The position numbers and the translations under genes are program-made. Below are positions 5,880 through 59,262 of a stretch of 64,000 bases of DNA, piece after piece. This stretch comes from Hyphomicrobiales bacterium (GTDB lineage Bacteria > Pseudomonadota > Alphaproteobacteria > Rhizobiales > MH13): contig JAEPOK010000002.1 in assembly GCA_017642935.1 (NCBI GenBank), forward strand, positions 1,175,501 to 1,239,500. The letters run 5' to 3'. Position 1 is the first letter of the stretch, and every line of letters begins with the position of its first letter. A model generated the notes under the pieces. It made no database searches, was not told the origin of the DNA, and was given only the letters and a program-made list of their open reading frames with translations.

Positions 5880-7418
5880 ATGCTTGAAGGGATTCTCTCC
5901 GGCGTCGGCGTCGCTGCCCAGCCGATCAACCTTTTGATGGTGATGGTCGGCTGCTTTGCCGGCACCTTTATCGGCATGCTGCCGGGCCTTGGTCCAATTT
6001 CAGCCATCGCGCTGATGATCCCGATCACCTATGGCTTTGATCCTTCCACCGGCCTCATCCTGATGGCGGGTGTCTATTATGGCGCGATTTTTGGCGGCTC
6101 GACCTCCTCGATCCTGATCAATGCGCCGGGCGTTGCCGGCACGGTGGCGTCCTCCTTCGATGGTTATCCGCTGGCCAAAGCCGGGCACGCCGGCAAGGCG
6201 CTGGCGATTGCAGCCTACTCGTCGTTTTCCGGCGGCACGATCGCTGCTATCTTTTTGCTGATCGCCGCCCCGGCGCTGGCGCAGGTATCACTATCCTTCC
6301 AGTCGACCGACTACTTCGCACTGATGGTGCTCGGGCTGACCGCTGTGGCCGCCTTTGCCGGTAAGGGCAATCTGGTCAAAGCCCTGCTCATGACCATTCT
6401 CGGGCTGATGCTCTCGACCGTCGGCACCGACCAGGCGCAGGGCGTGCCGCGATTCACCCTTGGCATGCTCGATCTCATCGACGGCATCTCCTTCCTCCTC
6501 TTGGCGATGGCGACCTTCGCGCTGTCAGAGGCTCTGATGGCCGTGCTGCGTCCAAAATCGGCGGCCGATCAGGCCAAGGAGTTGGAGGCACAGAAAAACC
6601 TTGGCTCGATGCGGCTTTCGAAAAGCGAGGTGAAAGAGATCGCTCCCGTTGTCGGGCGGTCGTCGGTGCTTGGTTTCTTCATTGGGGTGTTGCCGGGGGC
6701 CGGTGCGACCATCGCCTCGTTCCTCGCCTATGGCGTCGAGCAGCGTTTGGCCGGTCCGAAAAAGGGCAAGGAATTCGGCAAAGGTTCGGTACGCGGGCTT
6801 GCTGCGCCAGAAACGGCCAACAACGCGGCTTGCTCAGGCTCGTTCGTGCCGCTTCTGACGCTGGGCATTCCGGGTTCGGGCACCACGGCGATCATGCTTG
6901 GGGCGCTGCTCTCCTACGGCATTCAGCCGGGGCCGCGCCTCTTCATCGACAATCCGGAAGTCTTCTGGTCGGTGATCATTTCCATGTACATCGGCAACAT
7001 CGTGCTCCTGGTGCTAAACCTACCGCTGATCCCTTACATTGCCCGCGTGCTGGCGCTGCCGAGCGCGGTGCTGGTGCCCTACATCCTCTTCTTCTCGCTG
7101 ATCGGCGTCTATTTCGTTTCCTTTAATACCTTCGACATTCATTTGATGGTGTTGTTCGCCATCGTCGCCTTGGTGTTGCGCCTGCTTGATTTTCCGATGG
7201 CGCCGATGCTGCTCGGCTTCATTCTGGGCGGGATGATGGAAGAGAACTTGCGCCGAGCGCTCATTATCTCCGATGATAGCTGGGCGTTCCTGTGGGAGCG
7301 GCCTCTGACGGCTTCGATCCTGGCGATCGCGATCCTGATCCTTTTCGTTCCGATCCTCACGCCCTACATCGCCCGGATGAAAGACAAGGTCTACGACAAG
7401 GCCGGCGAAGGCGGGTAA
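5880..7418 (+). CDS. tctA: TTT transporter large permease TctA
   Basis: A 512-residue multi-pass permease, the transport channel of the tripartite tricarboxylate transporter. The two halves carry the paired signatures GMLPGLGPISAIALMIP (about residue 32) and GVLPGAGATIASFLAYG (about residue 267), which identify TctA/COG3333. The stretch GAIFGGSTSSILINAPG and the later GIPGSGTTAIMLGALLSYG are the conserved substrate and ion loops of each half. The length matches the family (about 500). It ends the tctCBA operon; the next gene converges from the other strand. Energy coupling is thought to be cation symport. Substrate specificity is set by TctC and remains open. Confidence 0.95.
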   Translation: MLEGILSGVGVAAQPINLLMVMVGCFAGTFIGMLPGLGPISAIALMIPITYGFDPSTGLILMAGVYYGAIFGGSTSSILINAPGVAGTVASSFDGYPLAKAGHAGKALAIAAYSSFSGGTIAAIFLLIAAPALAQVSLSFQSTDYFALMVLGLTAVAAFAGKGNLVKALLMTILGLMLSTVGTDQAQGVPRFTLGMLDLIDGISFLLLAMATFALSEALMAVLRPKSAADQAKELEAQKNLGSMRLSKSEVKEIAPVVGRSSVLGFFIGVLPGAGATIASFLAYGVEQRLAGPKKGKEFGKGSVRGLAAPETANNAACSGSFVPLLTLGIPGSGTTAIMLGALLSYGIQPGPRLFIDNPEVFWSVIISMYIGNIVLLVLNLPLIPYIARVLALPSAVLVPYILFFSLIGVYFVSFNTFDIHLMVLFAIVALVLRLLDFPMAPMLLGFILGGMMEENLRRALIISDDSWAFLWERPLTASILAIAILILFVPILTPYIARMKDKVYDKAGEGG

Positions 7419-38529: not shown

Positions 38530-43269
<4,740 letters not shown>

Positions 43270-43632: not shown

Positions 43633-43987
43633 ACATCGCTGACCTTTCCACGGCTGTTTGCCAGAAAGTGAACAGCCGCTCAACCCGCAAATTGGCGCAT
43701 TCGCACGAAAAGGCGAGGTTTTGAGGGTGAAATTGAAAGGAAATTCCATTGGACTGAAATATTGTTTCAAAGACGCCTGTTCACGGCGGCGTGATCGAAC
43801 ATCACGCTCGCGCACCCCGGCGTGAGTTTCGGGTGCGTGAAACTTCCTTCCTTTGTCATTTCCTCTTTATCGGCTGGTCCGTCATCACTTGGGACGAGAA
43901 GCGAACATGTCTTCTCCCCCCAACTCTCACACCGGTGCCGCCCATGCTTCGCACCGCCCACATAAGTGTCTTGAAAGGACCTTCTCT

Positions 43988-44320
43988 ATGAGCATTTCAC
44001 GTCGCGCTGTGAACACCGCCGTCATCGCCGCTGCCGTTGCTGGTGTTGCTGCTTCTGTCACTGCTGTTGTCCCTGCCCACGCCCAGGGCCAGGAAAAATG
44101 CTATGGCATTTCGCTGGCCGGCGCCAACGACTGCGCCGCTGGCCCAGGCACCACATGCGCTGGCACTTCCACCGTTGACTACCAGGGCAATGCCTGGACC
44201 TTCGTCGACGCTGGCACCTGCGAACAGTACGGCTCGGCTTCCATGATGGACGACGACCTTTACCTGCCGGACGGCCGTATGGGTTCGCTTGAAGAACTGG
44301 ACCGCGATCTGCCGGCCTAA
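43988..44320 (+). CDS. bufA: Bufferin-type RiPP precursor (BufA1, DUF2282)
   Basis: A 110-residue secreted peptide precursor. The signal peptide (residues 1-32, cleavage AHA-Q) is followed by the DUF2282 core with four Cys (38, 49, 57, 78): [18 protein letters not shown], then [17 protein letters not shown] and AGTCEQY. In bufferins of this type, the partner MNIO enzyme converts conserved Cys to thiooxazole groups and the exported product binds copper, giving protection. Here an acidic tail of about 25 residues follows the last Cys ([20 protein letters not shown]), which looks like an extension of the usual core. The start at 43988 follows AAAGGA; the longer frame upstream has no homology. 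It is first of bufA-B-C-D and is followed by an 11-bp hairpin. Confidence 0.9.
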
Positions 44321-44343
44321 CGCTTAGGTCCCCAGATCGCCTA

Positions 44344-44380
44344 CCGGATGGCGGCATATCGCCCGTATCCCGCCATCCGG
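44344..44380 (+). other. RNA hairpin between bufA and bufB
   Basis: CCGGATGGCGG (44344-44354) and CCGCCATCCGG (44370-44380) form a perfect 11-bp stem with a 15-nt loop. No T-run follows. It probably protects the bufA message or attenuates bufBCD, giving precursor in excess over enzyme. Confidence 0.65.
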
Positions 44381-44407
44381 ACCAACACCCACACCCCAGG
44401 CTGACCC

Positions 44408-45301
44408 ATGTCCCGCATTACGCTCGCCCCGCCCTCGCAACCGATGATCACTGATGCCCTTGCCGGTGTCGGGTTCAAGCATGAGCATGCCGAAGAGGTG
44501 TTCAGCGGCGATCACGACGTGGCGTGGTTCGAAGTTCACCCTGAAAACTACATGGGCGAGGGCGGCATGCCGCATCGCCTGCTGACTGATCTGCGCGAGC
44601 GCCTTGGCCTGTCGTTGCACGGCGTTGGCCTGTCCATTGGTGGTGAACGTGCGCTCGATAAAGAGCATCTGGCGCGGCTCGCTGCGCTCAACGAACGCTA
44701 CGAACCGGACCTTTTCTCCGAACATCTGGCCTGGTCGAGCCATGATGAAGGCTATCTCAACGACCTTCTGCCCTTGCCCTACACCCAAGCGACGCTGGAC
44801 CTTGTCTGCGATCATATCGACGAGGTGCAGGAGGCGCTGGGCCGCACCATCTTGCTTGAGAACCCCTCCACCTATGTGGTGTTTGAGGGTTCGCAGATGA
44901 GCGAGACTGATTTTCTCAAAGCGATCGCCAAGCGCACTGGCTGTGGTCTGCTGCTCGACGTCAACAATGTGTTTGTGTCGGCCACCAACCACCAAACCTC
45001 CGCTGAAGACTATCTGGCTGATTTTCCCGTCGGTCATGTCGGTGAAATCCACCTGGCGGGTCACGCGTCGGTCACTTTGAGCGATGGCGCGCAGTTGCTG
45101 ATCGATGCGCATGACCGCGCCGTCTCCGATCCTGTCTGGGCGCTTTATGAACAACTGATCAAACGCATTGGGCCCCGGCCAACGCTCGTCGAGTGGGACA
45201 ATGACGTGCCCGCTTTCAATGTGCTCGCCCATGAGGCAGCGCAGGCGCAGGCGATCCTTTGCAGGAACGACCCGATTCTGGGTTGCCGCCATGTTGCTTG
45301 A
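44408..45301 (+). CDS. bufB: MNIO-family (DUF692) bufferin-modifying enzyme
   Basis: A 297-residue TIM-barrel multinuclear non-haem iron oxidase. Metal-ligand motifs appear in order: [73 protein letters not shown] and VEWDNDVP. The His, Asp and Glu in these bind two or three irons. MNIO enzymes in bufferin systems oxidise Cys of the BufA peptide in the cytoplasm before export. It lies 87 bp after bufA and overlaps bufC by 11 bp. The assignment to bufferin rather than methanobactin-type MNIO rests on the DUF2282 gene next to it. Confidence 0.95.
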
Positions 45302-46115
45302 GATGAGTGCGCGCCAGCACCATCATGGTGATTTCGCCGCTGCGGTGCTCGATCCGGACAAGCCTGTTCCTGACGGTATTGGTCGTGCCAATGGCGCGGA
45401 CCCTTTGGAAGCCTTCAACGTCTACCGCAACAATGTGGTGGCCAGTCTAGCCGACGCGCTGAAGGGTGCCTTTCCTGTCACGTCGCTATTGTTGGGCGAA
45501 GGGTTGCAGCGGGCTCTGATGGCCGATTTCGTGCGCGCCCACCCGCCAAAAACTGCTGTGCTCTCCAGCTATGGTGGCGATTTTCCGGGCTACCTCGCGC
45601 AACATCCCGCGACAAAGGCTCGGCCCTTTTTGGGCGATGTAGCGTTGCTCGAACGCCGCCGTATCGAGGCCTATCATGCCATTGATGCGCCGGTTTTTGA
45701 TGGCGCAATACTTGGCGGTGTCGATCCGGAGATCCTGTCGGCCGGCACCTTGATGGTGCATCCAGCGGTGCGGCTCGTGTCCTCACGCTTTCCTATTGCC
45801 ACGGTCTACGCCATCGAGAAGGCAACGCTGGATGGGGTCGCGCCGCCAGTGGATCGTTCAACGGTCGATATGCGTAAGGGCGAGGCGGTCTTAATCGCGC
45901 GTCCGGTCTACGACGTCTCCTCGCAGCCGATCGGCAAGGGCGATTTTGCTTTCATCAAGGCCTGCGCGCGCGGGGTCCCCTTTGGGGCGGCGGCCCAAGA
46001 TGGGTTCCAAGCGGACCCAGCGTTCGATCTGCAAGCCAGCCTGGGGCTTTGTCTCACTGCCGGCGTGTTCACCGCCTTCCATTCGACACCCTCTTTTACT
46101 AAGACGCTGGAGTAG
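45291..46115 (+). CDS. bufC: DUF2063 bufferin partner protein (BufC)
   Basis: A 274-residue protein of the DUF2063 family, annotated as 'putative DNA-binding' in many genomes but now known as the usual partner of DUF692 enzymes. The N-terminal part (about 5-95) has the helical [22 protein letters not shown] signature, and the C-terminal part is alpha/beta. In bufferin and related systems it is thought to bind the precursor and present it to the MNIO enzyme. The start at 45291 overlaps bufB by 11 bp; a second ATG at 45303, one base after the bufB stop, is equally possible. No signal peptide. Confidence 0.92.
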
Positions 46116-46121
46116 TTCCCG

Positions 46122-46736
46122 ATGGCTTCCGTAGAACAGTCTGAAACCATGAGTGTACCTCCCGCTCCATCCGATTCTCCGACCCTGATTGGCAGTGTGC
46201 GTGCCGTCTGGAAAGACATTACCGACGCCATCGATTGGCTTACGGCGGCTTGGCTGCCTGGGCTTGTTGCGCGGTTTGTTTTTTTGGCGACCTTGTTCGG
46301 CTATTATTGGAACGCGGCGCTGACCAAAATCGATGGCAGCATCTTCGAGCTTTCCACCGGCGCCTATGCACAGATCATCCCTCCCATCATTGAAGCGGCA
46401 GGCTATGACAAAAGTGCTGTCGCTCTGCCTTGGACGGTGTTGGTCTATGCGGGCACCTATGCTGAGTTTGTTCTGCCGGTGCTGTTGGTGATCGGCCTGT
46501 TCGGCCGCCTTGCCGCCCTTGGCATGATCAGCTTCGTGATCGTTCAATCTTATGTCGATCTGACGTTCCATGGTGTGGATGCCGAAACAGCGGGCGCTTG
46601 GTTTGATCGTTTTCCCGACTCGATCATTTACGACCAGCGTCTGCTTTGGCTCTTCCCGCTGATCTATCTGGTGCTCAAAGGGCCAGGTCTTTTGTCGGTC
46701 GATGGACTGCTTGGCCGGATGTTCAAAAAAGCCTGA
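46122..46736 (+). CDS. bufD: DoxX-family membrane protein (BufD)
   Basis: A 204-residue inner-membrane protein with four helices (about 45-62, 105-128, 132-150 and 175-190). WLPGLVARFVFLATLFGYYW and TYAEFVLPVLLVIGLFGRLAALGMI are DoxX-type segments. DoxX genes end many bufferin operons; the protein is an orphan quinol-oxidase-related membrane subunit of unknown role, possibly linking the modifying enzyme to the respiratory chain. The start is 6 bp after the bufC stop, so the operon is tightly packed. Confidence 0.9.
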   Translation: MASVEQSETMSVPPAPSDSPTLIGSVRAVWKDITDAIDWLTAAWLPGLVARFVFLATLFGYYWNAALTKIDGSIFELSTGAYAQIIPPIIEAAGYDKSAVALPWTVLVYAGTYAEFVLPVLLVIGLFGRLAALGMISFVIVQSYVDLTFHGVDAETAGAWFDRFPDSIIYDQRLLWLFPLIYLVLKGPGLLSVDGLLGRMFKKA

Positions 46737-46798: not shown

Positions 46799-47863
46799 AT
46801 GTTTTTTGGAAGTGACAATTGGGCAGGGGTCTCGCCACTAGTGGCTGAGGCCCTTTCTGCTTGTGCGGGCGGGTTCGCCAGCGCCTATGGATCGGACGAC
46901 CTGACGACCCAGACCCGCGACGCGCTCGGCACGTTCTTTGACCGCGATGTGGATGTGTTTTTCACCGCTACGGGCTCTGCCGCCAACATGCTTTCCTTAA
47001 GTGCGGTGGCTCGCCCTGGGGGCGTGGTGTTTGCCCACCGCGATTCGCACATTTTGGTCGATGAGGCTGCCGGGCCAGAATCGTTGGTCGGCATGAAGCT
47101 GCATGCCTTGCAGGGTCGCCTGGGCCGCATCAATGCCAAGGAGCTAACAGAAGCGCTTGCCACATATCCGCGCGAACATGTGCATCGCGGACGCGGCATC
47201 GCCGTCTCGATGACGCAGGGCACCGAGCTTGGTACCACCTATTGCGTGATGGATGTGGCTGCCATTGGCTCCATTGCACGCCGTAACAACCTCGTTTTGC
47301 ACATGGATGGCGCGCGCTTTTCCAACGCGCTGGTGGCGCAGAATGTGACCCCGGCGGCGCTGACCCATGAATCCGGTGTCGATCTACTCTCGCTTGGCTT
47401 CACCAAGAACGGGGCCTGGGCCTCTGAGATGGTGGTGAGTTTCCGCGAAGACCTGCGTGACGATCTCACCTACCGTCAGAAAGCCATGGGGCAGGTGTTT
47501 TCGAAAAACCGCTTTGCCGCCGCGCAGGCGCTCGCCATGCTGACCGACGATCATTGGAAGGTGCTTGCCACTCACGCCAATGGGATGGCAAAAAAACTTT
47601 CAGACGGCGTGGCCGCGCTGGAAGGCTGCCGTCTTGCTGCGCCGACCGAGATCAACGAGGTTTTTGCGATCATTCCGCAGGCGATGGCCGACAAGCTGAA
47701 GGCTGCCAGTGCGATCTTTGCCGATTGGCCCAAGGACACCGCCGAGACCGATATTGCACCGGGTGAAGGCGAAGTCATGATCCGTCTGGTGGCAAGCTTT
47801 GCCACCACCGACGATCATGTCGATCAGTTCCTTGAGGCCGCGCAACGCGCCGAGGCCGCCTAA
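46799..47863 (+). CDS. Threonine aldolase family PLP enzyme
   Basis: A 354-residue fold-type I PLP enzyme of the beta-eliminating lyase / low-specificity L-threonine aldolase family, cleaving threonine or related beta-hydroxy amino acids to glycine and an aldehyde. MFFGSDNWAGVSP is the aldolase-type start, the His in VFAHRDSHILVDE stacks on PLP, Asp170 in LHMDGARF binds the pyridine N, and Lys203 in SLGFTKNGAWASE is the Schiff-base Lys of the FGGTKNG-like clade. ACGGAG is its ribosome site. Its stop overlaps that of the convergent Rieske-ThDP gene by 3 bases (47860-47863). It may supply glycine to the AGCS/GOGAT neighbourhood (inference). Confidence 0.92.
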   Translation: MFFGSDNWAGVSPLVAEALSACAGGFASAYGSDDLTTQTRDALGTFFDRDVDVFFTATGSAANMLSLSAVARPGGVVFAHRDSHILVDEAAGPESLVGMKLHALQGRLGRINAKELTEALATYPREHVHRGRGIAVSMTQGTELGTTYCVMDVAAIGSIARRNNLVLHMDGARFSNALVAQNVTPAALTHESGVDLLSLGFTKNGAWASEMVVSFREDLRDDLTYRQKAMGQVFSKNRFAAAQALAMLTDDHWKVLATHANGMAKKLSDGVAALEGCRLAAPTEINEVFAIIPQAMADKLKAASAIFADWPKDTAETDIAPGEGEVMIRLVASFATTDDHVDQFLEAAQRAEAA

Positions 47864-49830
47864 ACTAGCTCAGCGTCCGTCATCACCTCAACTAGGGCCG
47901 GGCCATCCACGGCCAAGGCCTTTTCGAGCGCGGCTTCGACATCCTCACCCTTGGTGACCTTCGCGCCGTGTGCGCCGCAGAGCTTGGCGAAGGCGGCAAA
48001 AGATGGGTTGACCAGCGACGTCTCCCAAACCGGCCATTCGCCGGAACGCTGTTCCTTTGAAATTTTGCCCAGCTCATCATTGTGGAGCAGCACATGGGTG
48101 ATATCCATGCCGTATTTCACTGCTGTTGTGAGTTCCATGGCGTACTGTCCAAACCCGCCATCGCCAGATATCGAGATCACCTTGCGGCCGCGAAATTCTT
48201 CGAAGTCTTGGGTGGCAGCCCAGGCGCCCATGGCGGCGGGCAACGCAAAACCAATTGACCCAAGATAACCCGACATCATGACGTGCTGACCCTTGGTCTC
48301 GAAATACCGACCAAAGGAATAGGTGTTGTTGCCAACATCAACGGCGATCAAAGCATCTTTCGGCGCAACGCGCGACAGGGCCTCGAAGATCGCCACCGAG
48401 TGCACGCCGTTTGAGCCTTCTTCGCGCAGGCGGTTGTTTTTCTCCTCGCGCCACATCTGCCAGCGGTCGGCAAGCTCGCCGATCTGGTCGTCGGCCTCGG
48501 GGTTGCTTGCTGCCTTGGCTGAAACCGCGCCACAGAAGGCGCCAATCTCGCCCCAGACCGGTAAGGTGACCGGGTGGAACTTGCCAAGCTGCATCCGTTC
48601 GAAATCCACCTGGATGGTCGGTTTGCTGCGTTCGATCCCGGTGTGGTTGGAGAAGGATGCGCCAAGAACGATCTGAAGGTCGCATTCGTTCATGAACCAG
48701 CTGGCGATCGGCGTGCCTGACCGTCCCAACACGCCGCCAGCGTTGGGGTGGTTGTCGGGGATGAGGCCTTTGCCCTTGAAGGTGGTGAGCACCGGGGCGC
48801 CGAGCGTTTCGGCAAGCGTGATTATGCCCTCGCGCGCGTCCCAAGCGCCGTGACCGATGATGATGAGTGGGCGTTTGGCTGACGCGATCATCGTCAAGGC
48901 TTCCTCGACATCCTCGTCGGCTGGTTTGACGACCGGGCCGCTCACCCTGCCTTTCGGCGAGGCAGCGGGTTTGTCGCTCGGCAGCGTTTGGACGTCATCG
49001 GGGAAGATCAGATGCGCCACGTCGCGTTCAATTAGCGCTGTCTTGATGGCCAATGACGCCAGCTCGGTGTGGTTGGACGTGGAAAGCACCGGCTGGGAGA
49101 ATTTGCTGACGGCCTGGAAGGCCGATTTCAGATCGATGTCCTGAAAGGCGCCGGGCCCGAACACCTGGGTTTGCACTTGACCCGTCAGGGCGAGAACCGG
49201 AGCACGATCGACCTTCGCGTCCCACATGCCGGTCAGAAGGTTGGTCGCGCCTGGTCCGGCGATGGTGAGGCAGGCGGCAGGCTTGCCGGTGAGTTTGCCA
49301 TAGGCGGACGCAGCAAAGCCGGCCGCGCCTTCGTGGCGGATGCCGATATAGGCCATGTCCCCGTCCGCCGTGCGACGGCGGATCGCGTCGGCCAGGCCAA
49401 GATTGGAGTGACCAACCATGCCGAACACGCGTTTGACGCCCCAATTGACCATGGTTTCGGCCATTGCGTCGGTGACCGTGCGCGTGTGGTCTGGTTCCGG
49501 CTCAAGCCCGACAAAGACTTCACCGTCGCGCACCTCGACCGGGTAGGTCTTTTGACCGCTATCTTCATGACCGCCAGGGGGCGCACCGGTCAGCGGGTCA
49601 AAATCCCAGCCGTGCCAGGGGCAGCGAATCCAGCATTTGTCATCGACGCCGCGCTCGATCGAGCCTTCGCCAAGCGGGCCGCCTTGGTGCGGACAATGAT
49701 TGTCCATCGCGGCCCATTGCCCGTCGAAATGCGACAGGCAGAGGTAAAGGTTGCGGGCCGAAACGGTTTTCACCCGTCCCTCCGGCAGGTCGTCGACCTT
49801 GCCAACGCTGATCCAGTCCAAGTCGCTCAT
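47860..49830 (-). CDS. Rieske [2Fe-2S] domain fused to a ThDP-dependent 2-oxo-acid enzyme
   Basis: A 656-residue fusion. Residues 1-110 are a Rieske domain with CPHQG (Cys46, His48) and CPWHGW (Cys70, His73). From about 115 a complete acetolactate synthase/pyruvate oxidase-type enzyme follows: PYR domain with the catalytic Glu in GIRHEGAAGFAAS, central domain, and PP domain with the ThDP motif beginning SGDGGFGQYAMELTTAV and ending HND. Rieske-ThDP fusions are rare and I know of no assigned reaction. The start at 49830 follows a perfect GGAGG and overlaps the upstream gene by ATGA; the longer frame upstream is only a shadow of that gene. A redox role (oxidative decarboxylation rather than carboligation) is inferred from the added Fe-S centre. 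Confidence 0.88.
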   Translation of the reverse strand: MSDLDWISVGKVDDLPEGRVKTVSARNLYLCLSHFDGQWAAMDNHCPHQGGPLGEGSIERGVDDKCWIRCPWHGWDFDPLTGAPPGGHEDSGQKTYPVEVRDGEVFVGLEPEPDHTRTVTDAMAETMVNWGVKRVFGMVGHSNLGLADAIRRRTADGDMAYIGIRHEGAAGFAASAYGKLTGKPAACLTIAGPGATNLLTGMWDAKVDRAPVLALTGQVQTQVFGPGAFQDIDLKSAFQAVSKFSQPVLSTSNHTELASLAIKTALIERDVAHLIFPDDVQTLPSDKPAASPKGRVSGPVVKPADEDVEEALTMIASAKRPLIIIGHGAWDAREGIITLAETLGAPVLTTFKGKGLIPDNHPNAGGVLGRSGTPIASWFMNECDLQIVLGASFSNHTGIERSKPTIQVDFERMQLGKFHPVTLPVWGEIGAFCGAVSAKAASNPEADDQIGELADRWQMWREEKNNRLREEGSNGVHSVAIFEALSRVAPKDALIAVDVGNNTYSFGRYFETKGQHVMMSGYLGSIGFALPAAMGAWAATQDFEEFRGRKVISISGDGGFGQYAMELTTAVKYGMDITHVLLHNDELGKISKEQRSGEWPVWETSLVNPSFAAFAKLCGAHGAKVTKGEDVEAALEKALAVDGPALVEVMTDAELV

Positions 49831-51437
49831 GCCACACCTCCATAGGCAACGCCCGATAGGGCGGCCATTTCCTTTTTCCAGGTGGTCAGATCCTCTTGAT
49901 TGAACTCTGAGAGATGATTGTGACCGCACGCGCGCGCCATCACCTGCATGAGCTCGACCGAGGCTTCTAAAAAGTTGGTCAGTTGGCGCGCTGATTTTTC
50001 CACGATGAGGCGATTGACCAGATGCGGCTTTTGGGTCGCGATCCCAACCGGGCAATTGTTGGTGTGGCAGGCGCGCATGGCGATGCAGCCAATTGCCTGC
50101 ATGGCCGAATTGGAAAGCGCCACCGCGTCGGCGCCGAGCGCCATGGCTTTGATGAAGTCAGCTGGCTTGCGCAGGCCACCGGTGATAACCAGCGTTACAT
50201 CGCCTCGGTCCAAAAGGTCCAAGTGCCGCCGTGCCCGTGCCAAGGCCGGGATGGTCGGCACCGAAATGTTGTCGCGGAACAGGATGGGAGCTGCGCCCGT
50301 GCCGCCGCCGCGGCCATCGAGGATGATGTAGTCCACGCCGACCTCAAGCGCTGCGTCGATGTCCTTTTCGATGTGTTGGGCGGAGAGCTTGTAACCGATT
50401 GGGATGCCGCCGGTGCGGTCGCGGACCTGGTCGGCGAAAGCTTTGATTTGGGAGGGATCAGTCCACTCAGGAAAGCGCGGTGGCGAGATTGCATCTTCGC
50501 CCTCGGGGATGTCACGCACTTCGGCGATCTTGCCGGTATTCTTTGACCCGGGAAGATGGCCGCCGGTGCCGGTTTTTGCGCCCTGTCCGCCCTTGAAATG
50601 GAAGGCTTGGACTTTGGCGAGCTTGTCCCAGTCGAAACCGAAGCGAGAGGAGGCCAGTTCATAAAAGTAACGCGAATTGGCCGCCTGCTCCTCCGGCAGC
50701 ATTCCGCCTTCGCCGGAGCAAATGCCCGTGCCGGCCAGCTCCGCGCCGCGCGCGAGGGCGATTTTTGCGGGCTCCGACAGAGCGCCAAACGACATGTCGG
50801 AGACGAAGAGCGGGATTTTAAGCGTTAGCGGTTTTTGCGCATTGGGGCCAATGACCACCTCCGTGCCAACAGGATCATCGTCCAGCAGCGGTGGCTTGTG
50901 CAATTGGGCGGTCAGCAGCTGGAGGTCATCCCAGCTGGGAAGCTCATCGCGCGGCACGCCCATAGCTTCGACCTTGCCATGGTGGCCGGTCTTGGAGAGA
51001 CCATCACGGGCGTAGGTTTGGATGAGCCCTGTGAGCGGTTCCTCGTCGGTGCCGTGCGAGGTGTCGGCATAGAGCCCAAGATAGGCATCACGATTGAACG
51101 GTTGCGGGTTGTCCTTGGCCCAAGCGGAGATTTCATCGGCGTCCGCGCAAACCTCGTCACCTTCGATCCAGGATGAGAATTTCGGCAGCTTTTCATCATT
51201 GGCATATTCCGACACGCCGGTGTCGAGCCGGTAGTCCCAGTCATGGACCCCGCAGATGAGGTTCTGACCTCGGACGAACCCGTCGGCCATCAGCGCGCCA
51301 CGGTGCAAACATCGCCCGTAGAAAACCGAGACGTCATCATCGAACCGAACCACGACAAGATCGACCTCGTCGACCAGAGCATAGGCAGGTTCGCGGTCGG
51401 CCAGTTCGCTTAAGCGTGCGACAACGGTTTTTTTCAT
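49827..51437 (-). CDS. Rieske [2Fe-2S] domain fused to an FMN-binding glutamate-synthase domain
   Basis: A 536-residue fusion. The N-terminal Rieske domain (1-105) holds CLH (Cys43, His45) and CGVH (Cys62, His65). The rest is the FMN/2-oxoglutarate barrel of glutamate synthase: FVSDMSFGALSEPAKIALA, GEGGMLPEEQ, QGAKTGTGGHLPG, DGRGGGTGAAP, and the 3Fe-4S motif CIAMRACHTNNCPVG. It lacks the N-terminal glutaminase and the C-terminal beta-helix of GltB, so it is like archaeal or MgsC-type stand-alone GOGAT domains. The ammonia source and electron donor are not encoded in it. First gene of a two-gene operon with the Rieske-ThDP enzyme. A normal gltBD is present 10 kb away, so this is not the housekeeping GOGAT. 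Confidence 0.9.
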   Translation of the reverse strand: MKKTVVARLSELADREPAYALVDEVDLVVVRFDDDVSVFYGRCLHRGALMADGFVRGQNLICGVHDWDYRLDTGVSEYANDEKLPKFSSWIEGDEVCADADEISAWAKDNPQPFNRDAYLGLYADTSHGTDEEPLTGLIQTYARDGLSKTGHHGKVEAMGVPRDELPSWDDLQLLTAQLHKPPLLDDDPVGTEVVIGPNAQKPLTLKIPLFVSDMSFGALSEPAKIALARGAELAGTGICSGEGGMLPEEQAANSRYFYELASSRFGFDWDKLAKVQAFHFKGGQGAKTGTGGHLPGSKNTGKIAEVRDIPEGEDAISPPRFPEWTDPSQIKAFADQVRDRTGGIPIGYKLSAQHIEKDIDAALEVGVDYIILDGRGGGTGAAPILFRDNISVPTIPALARARRHLDLLDRGDVTLVITGGLRKPADFIKAMALGADAVALSNSAMQAIGCIAMRACHTNNCPVGIATQKPHLVNRLIVEKSARQLTNFLEASVELMQVMARACGHNHLSEFNQEDLTTWKKEMAALSGVAYGGVA

Positions 51438-59149: not shown

Positions 59150-59248
59150 CAGTGCGTCATGGCCCTCCCGGCGTGACGTAATGCCCTCCTTGGGCGTTTC
59201 CTCCCTAGACTTGAGCCGTTTGACCTTCGGGTCGAACGGCTTTTTTTT
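59150..59248 (+). ncRNA. Candidate anti-Shine-Dalgarno small RNA (alpha-r14/cuckoo-like)
   Basis: About 99 nt, read from the sequence and folded by eye. Hairpin 1 (59154-59179) shows CUCCC in its loop; hairpin 2 (59180-59198) is a 7-bp stem AAUGCCC/GGGCGUU with loop UCCUU; then single-stranded UCCUCCCUA (59199-59207); then a terminator, 11-bp stem GCCGTTTGACC/GGTCGAACGGC, loop TTCG, and T8 (59241-59248). The terminator works only on the plus strand, where no protein gene lies upstream. CCUCC-rich exposed loops are the hallmark of the alphaproteobacterial alpha-r14/CcsR-like sRNAs that block ribosome sites through Hfq. The 5' end is approximate. Confidence 0.7.
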
Positions 59249-59262
59249 GCGCAGGTGAAGGG

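Follow-up and report, generated by a model that had tools for sequence, protein, structure and literature searches.

The window examined here, a stretch of 64,000 nucleotides from a Hyphomicrobiales bacterium, carries an operon that we assign with high confidence to the Buf1-type bufferins, and which would thus yield a thiooxazole-modified, exported, copper-buffering peptide. Bufferins were first described recently, in Caulobacter. The genes bufA, bufB, bufC, and doxX lie head to tail in the canonical order at positions 43988-46736 on the + strand (Table 1), and a preliminary description of this DNA that had proposed a bufABCD operon here was correct for all four genes. Every sequence-level Buf1 feature that was tested was found, namely the precursor, its signal peptide, a maturase score above the family cutoff, the partner fold, DoxX, and the gene order. 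The earlier bufferin-type reading therefore holds as a statement of family membership, but the product is expected to be periplasmic rather than secreted as that description had assumed. By analogy with characterized members, this product is very likely a small exported peptide whose altered cysteines bind excess copper.

Table 1. Coordinates of the buf genes, their candidate regulatory elements, and other features of the window
Feature	Position	Strand	Remarks
bufA	43988-44320	+	110 aa
bufB	44408-45301	+	297 aa
bufC	45291-46115	+	274 aa
doxX (bufD)	46122-46736	+	204 aa
Perfect inverted repeat GCGTGATCGAACATCACGC	43789-43807		GTGA-N7-TCAC at its core; candidate buf operator
Conserved promoter-region block TTGTCATTTCCTCTTTATC	43853-43871	+	Upstream of bufA
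Intercistronic hairpin CCGGATGGCGG...CCGCCATCCGG	44344-44380	+	Between bufA and bufB
Glutamate synthase large-subunit gene (gltB)	38530-43269	-	Upstream flank, divergent from the buf genes
Beta-eliminating lyase gene	46799-47863		Downstream flank of the buf genes
Rieske-thiamine-pyrophosphate enzyme fusion	47863-49830	-	
Rieske-glutamate-synthase/FMN domain fusion	49830-51437	-	
mmgR/suhB sRNA	59176-59255	+	Rfam match
Ruegeria cis8 sRNA	6930-7057	-	Rfam match, just above the gathering score

Within the operon, the last 11 nt of bufB are shared with bufC, and a gap of 6 nt separates bufC from doxX. The bufA gene alone lies further off, 87 nt ahead of bufB. Although real, the find is for the most part an ordinary one, because the system is already known from Caulobacter and widespread among related bacteria. 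It provides a clean, single-copy example of a bufferin operon in an alphaproteobacterial family that has received little study. A separate observation concerns the surroundings: two adjacent genes on the - strand (47860-51437) each open with a Rieske [2Fe-2S] domain, and this pair of fusions is an unusual domain pairing beside a regular gltB.

The precursor and its processing proteins

The HMM search proposed in the preliminary description placed the DUF2282, DUF692-type, and DUF2063 proteins, together with DoxX, above their Pfam gathering cutoffs. BufA matches DUF2282 (PF10048) with 80.2 bits against a cutoff of 22.4. As had been claimed, it carries exactly four cysteines (Cys38, Cys49, Cys57, and Cys78), and these are invariant among 42 aligned homologues, as are G99 and L101, which belong to the “GSL” of the C-terminal tail. 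Read from the sequence, the signal peptide probably ends near Ala32 at an Ala-X-Ala site (AHA|QG). BufA is not a Buf2 precursor, since those have 6 or 12 cysteines and the BufA2 model gives only 19.2 bits against a cutoff of 60. Its sequence contains no EGKCG repeats. The tail, LPDGR-GSL-xLDRDLP, is common to the BufA proteins of a large group of Rhizobiales and Rhodobacterales, and an acidic insert ahead of it is an addition of the host family. This tail may dock on BufC. A fold search with BufA returned no match, and its structure model is weak (pLDDT 71).

Two further observations concern bufferin precursors. All host-family BufA signal peptides (43988-44090 in the window) contain an S/T-R-R motif (SRRAVN, TRRTVS, or TRRAAS), and an RR pair within the first 16 residues occurs in only a few of the BufA proteins of 124 relatives. 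This motif could possibly indicate a Tat-like export of BufA that has already been modified; the remainder of the Tat consensus is missing. In addition, thirteen related loci harbor, close to bufA, another bufA-like gene of a subtype that lacks the GPGTTC spacing; one example has AAGKHDCAG between Cys2 and Cys3.

BufB scores 355.8 bits with the Pfam model MbnB_TglH_ChrH (gathering cutoff 25) and 386.8 bits with the NCBIfam model MNIO_BufB (NF050167, “MNIO family bufferin maturase”; cutoff 310). It remains below the cutoffs of the other MNIO models, including HvfB (246.8 of 360 bits), MbnB (54.4 of 325 bits), ApyH, and ChrH. The listed metal and catalytic positions are present; the preliminary description had noted the metal motifs of a DUF692 (MNIO) enzyme. 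Ten positions do not vary among the 110 aligned BufB sequences (H71, H106, E151, D184, N187, H215, D233, H235, E262, and D264), and N186 is identical in 109 of them. Residues were mapped by counting offsets through the 3bww alignment rather than by superposing structures, and on this basis D233 and H235 correspond to the site-3 residues D242 and H244 of HvfB, and one of N186 and N187 corresponds to HvfB N175 (PMC13419390). By the same counting, D264 corresponds to Asp249 of FonB, the proposed catalytic base (PMC13097082), and the FonB residues Arg16 and Phe250, which specify EGKCG-type substrates, become His25 and Asn265 in BufB. The latter two positions vary across the aligned BufB sequences, which agrees with the reported loss of the EGKCG-type specificity residues in the DUF2282 class (PMC13097082). 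The invariance of the iron-site and catalytic residues is consistent with the HvfB and FonB data.

The DUF2063 partner and DoxX were likewise correctly named in the preliminary description. BufC matches DUF2063 (PF09836) with 72.3 bits (gathering cutoff 27.2) and falls below the cutoff of the NCBIfam HvfC model (42.7 versus 142 bits). For its AlphaFold2 model (pLDDT 93, pTM 0.88), the three best PDB matches are TglI in the TglHI complex (8hi7 and 8hci) and NGO1945 (3dee). The last of these is the published type structure of a PME-type-1 partner combining DUF2063 and RRE domains (PMC12452194). Judging from its predicted structure, BufC is a DUF2063 plus RRE-type partner protein of PME type 1. 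DoxX, which exceeds the PF07681 gathering cutoff (29 versus 23.6 bits), is a membrane protein with a presumed accessory role in the operon. By single-sequence search, roughly half of the related loci have doxX behind bufC.

Proposed mechanism and the role of copper

In Buf1, modification is confined to the two central cysteines, and a disulphide links the outer pair (PMC12452194). If this pattern is mapped onto BufA, Cys49 and Cys57 would be modified and Cys38 and Cys78 would be joined. We envisage a cytoplasmic step in which BufC would present the precursor BufA and BufB would use a mixed-valent di-iron center and O2 to convert Cys49 and Cys57 to 5-thiooxazoles. The signal peptide would then direct export, the Cys38-Cys78 disulphide would form in the periplasm, and the thiooxazoles would chelate Cu(I) or Cu(II) and so buffer excess copper. 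A hairpin that follows bufA (see below) would probably raise bufA mRNA over bufBC and provide much precursor per enzyme. The thiooxazole chemistry, the order of modification and export, and the copper function in this scheme are taken from characterized relatives.

The best-studied of these, Caulobacter Buf1, contains thiooxazoles, binds Cu(I) and Cu(II), and lets cells grow better when copper is in excess (PMC12452194). Copper induces the Caulobacter cluster, and mutation of sigF causes copper sensitivity (PMC8224329). The GIG promoter of Legionella responds to copper and gold (PMC5413113). An alternative is that the operon makes a genuine thiooxazole bufferin whose main role lies in another stress, caused by other metals (gold, silver, chromate, or cadmium) or oxidative in nature, and that its copper binding is secondary. 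The Caulobacter regulon also answers chromate and cadmium, the Cupriavidus cluster answers gold and silver (PMC8224329), MerC-bufferin fusions point to mercury (PMC12452194), and regulation differs in the host family. We consider this alternative unlikely because the best-studied Buf1 binds copper in both oxidation states and protects against it. In earlier work as cited in PMC8224329, the homologous Cupriavidus cluster had no effect on copper resistance. Given that null result, at least as it is cited there, a copper phenotype of a mutant is not guaranteed and its absence alone would be no refutation. A related Microbulbifer cluster that escaped detection in the proteome under copper (PMC12538549) also counsels caution about the copper role.

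The chemistry itself might also differ, such that BufB installs another modification, for example oxazolone-thioamide groups of the methanobactin type. The MNIO family is chemically diverse, and oxazolin was originally assigned such groups. Nevertheless, we regard this explanation as very improbable: BufB does not reach the cutoff of the MbnB model, every characterized PME1-dependent MNIO makes 5-thiooxazoles, and oxazolin has been revised to a thiooxazole (PMC13097082).

Distribution and selection

The preferred reading, a functional Buf1 operon, is also favored by its conservation. The host genome has one MNIO gene and one DUF2282 gene, so a single deletion would remove the cell's only DUF2282 precursor or its only MNIO. 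All five host-family genomes analyzed retain bufA, and across the order as a whole DUF2282 is found in 154 of 298 genomes sampled. Of about 115 related loci, nearly all show the A-B-C(-D) arrangement. The closest named relative is the metagenome-assembled genome of Devosiaceae bacterium MH13 (BufB 81% identical). Comparison of the window with two congeneric genomes gave dN values of 0.11-0.43 and dS values of 0.9-2.3 over the four genes; the higher dS values are near saturation, but every dN/dS ratio remains well below 1. With dS greatly exceeding dN in each of the four genes, the operon is neither a chance arrangement nor decayed, and the four-gene set is intact and evolutionarily maintained. 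A related MNIO-DUF2063 cluster in Microbulbifer is conserved, yet proteomics did not detect it in either the presence or the absence of copper (PMC12538549), but the intact reading frames, the purifying selection, the retention of bufA in all five family genomes, and the conserved promoter block described below make a silent or decaying cluster the least credible of the alternatives.

A recurrent hairpin between bufA and bufB

The bufA-bufB gap folds more stably than expected (z = -2.8), and the stem score of its hairpin was reached by none of 1,000 dinucleotide shuffles. Most relatives have strong stems of quite different sequence at the equivalent place. The median stem score is 26.5 for the bufA-bufB gaps compared with 15.5 for windows placed at random in these loci and 15.0 for the regions after bufC, although the p-value of the corresponding rank test is not a strict probability because the loci are related. 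Furthermore, a hairpin with a shuffle p ≤ 0.025 was found in 64% of 108 loci versus 7% of control stretches upstream of bufA. That the structure is kept while its sequence has changed argues for a function of the hairpin.

The hairpin is not followed by a run of T and is therefore not a classical terminator. At the operon, an intrinsic-terminator scan gave no more matches than chance and an Rfam search found no known RNA. The likeliest role, which we propose here, would be to stabilize or define the 3' end of the bufA mRNA and thereby lift bufA above bufBC. Its recurrence in about two thirds of the 108 relatives suggests that the precursor is made in excess over the enzyme, and it offers a concrete, testable idea for how cells obtain much precursor with little enzyme. 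Hairpins, stem-loops, and terminators are not mentioned in the survey paper, which was the literature covered on this point.

A family-specific promoter

Upstream of bufA, the GTCATTTC block is present in all five host-family genomes. In the four species of the genus, the palindrome GTGA-N7-TCAC precedes GTCATTTC at a constant spacing of exactly 64 nt, and the fifth genome has the block as well. The pair is absent from all other loci collected. Because the block is kept in one genome with a different upstream gene, it belongs with bufA and not with gltB. Elsewhere in the genome, no copy of the block was found at two or fewer mismatches, leaving bufA as the only site and revealing no regulon. 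No equally good site for the candidate operator was found elsewhere either, and two more matches to its pattern, with 3 mismatches, do not exceed the yield of a reversed-pattern control.

A sigma factor and an NrsF anti-sigma gene are frequent beside Buf1 operons but not obligatory, and many Buf1 clusters lack them. NrsF was not found in the host genome or in any of the five family genomes, two of which are incomplete, whereas the Caulobacter control was positive. The NrsF search therefore indicates that Caulobacter-type SigF/NrsF control of the buf operon is probably absent. A sigma-70 promoter scan at the operon yielded no more matches than chance. Separately, TTGTCATTT looks like one half of the E. 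coli CusR box; CopR/CusR control was rejected, as there is no palindrome around TTGTCATTT and the best response regulator of the genome scores 232 bits against the CopR-family cutoff of 279. None of the known copper regulators could be linked to the buf promoter, a point against the preferred reading.

The hairpin and the family-specific promoter are two modest regulatory observations that go beyond the preliminary description and were not found in the cited literature. Combining them, we tentatively propose, at somewhat less than an even chance, that a conserved RNA hairpin sets a high precursor-to-enzyme ratio in alphaproteobacterial bufferin operons and that the host family has left SigF/NrsF control for another regulator that reads a single-site GTGA-N7-TCAC operator. 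Such an operator suggests that bufferins are not bound to SigF control, and it provides a handle on the signal that switches them on.

Comparison with known systems

The bufA1B1C1D operon of Caulobacter vibrioides (CCNA_03363-03366) has the same four genes in the same order, with a four-Cys DUF2282 precursor bearing a signal peptide, an MNIO maturase, a DUF2063 partner, and DoxX. Unlike for Caulobacter Buf1, no NrsF anti-sigma gene was found in the host family, which has its own conserved promoter block, and the window's BufA has the acidic insert and the LPDGR-GSL-LDRDLP tail. The GIG operons of Cupriavidus metallidurans and Legionella pneumophila (lpg2105-2108) comprise four homologous genes and are induced by copper and gold. 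They are distant from the window operon, being betaproteobacterial and gammaproteobacterial, and the Legionella GIG is on a mobile element, whereas the window operon is conserved chromosomally through the host family.

The EGKCG-type captophorins oxazolin (hvf), fontiphorin (fon), and gonophorin share with it an MNIO and PME1, 5-thiooxazoles, and an exported copper-binding peptide. Their precursors consist of EGKCG repeats, unlike BufA, and FonB has Arg16 and Phe250 where BufB has His25 and Asn265. Methanobactin (mbnABC) likewise uses an enzyme of the MNIO superfamily and copper-binding modified cysteines, but it has a leader-peptide precursor, an MbnC partner without DUF2063, and oxazolone-thioamide groups. 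It serves copper uptake rather than buffering, and its MbnB model scores below cutoff for the window's BufB.
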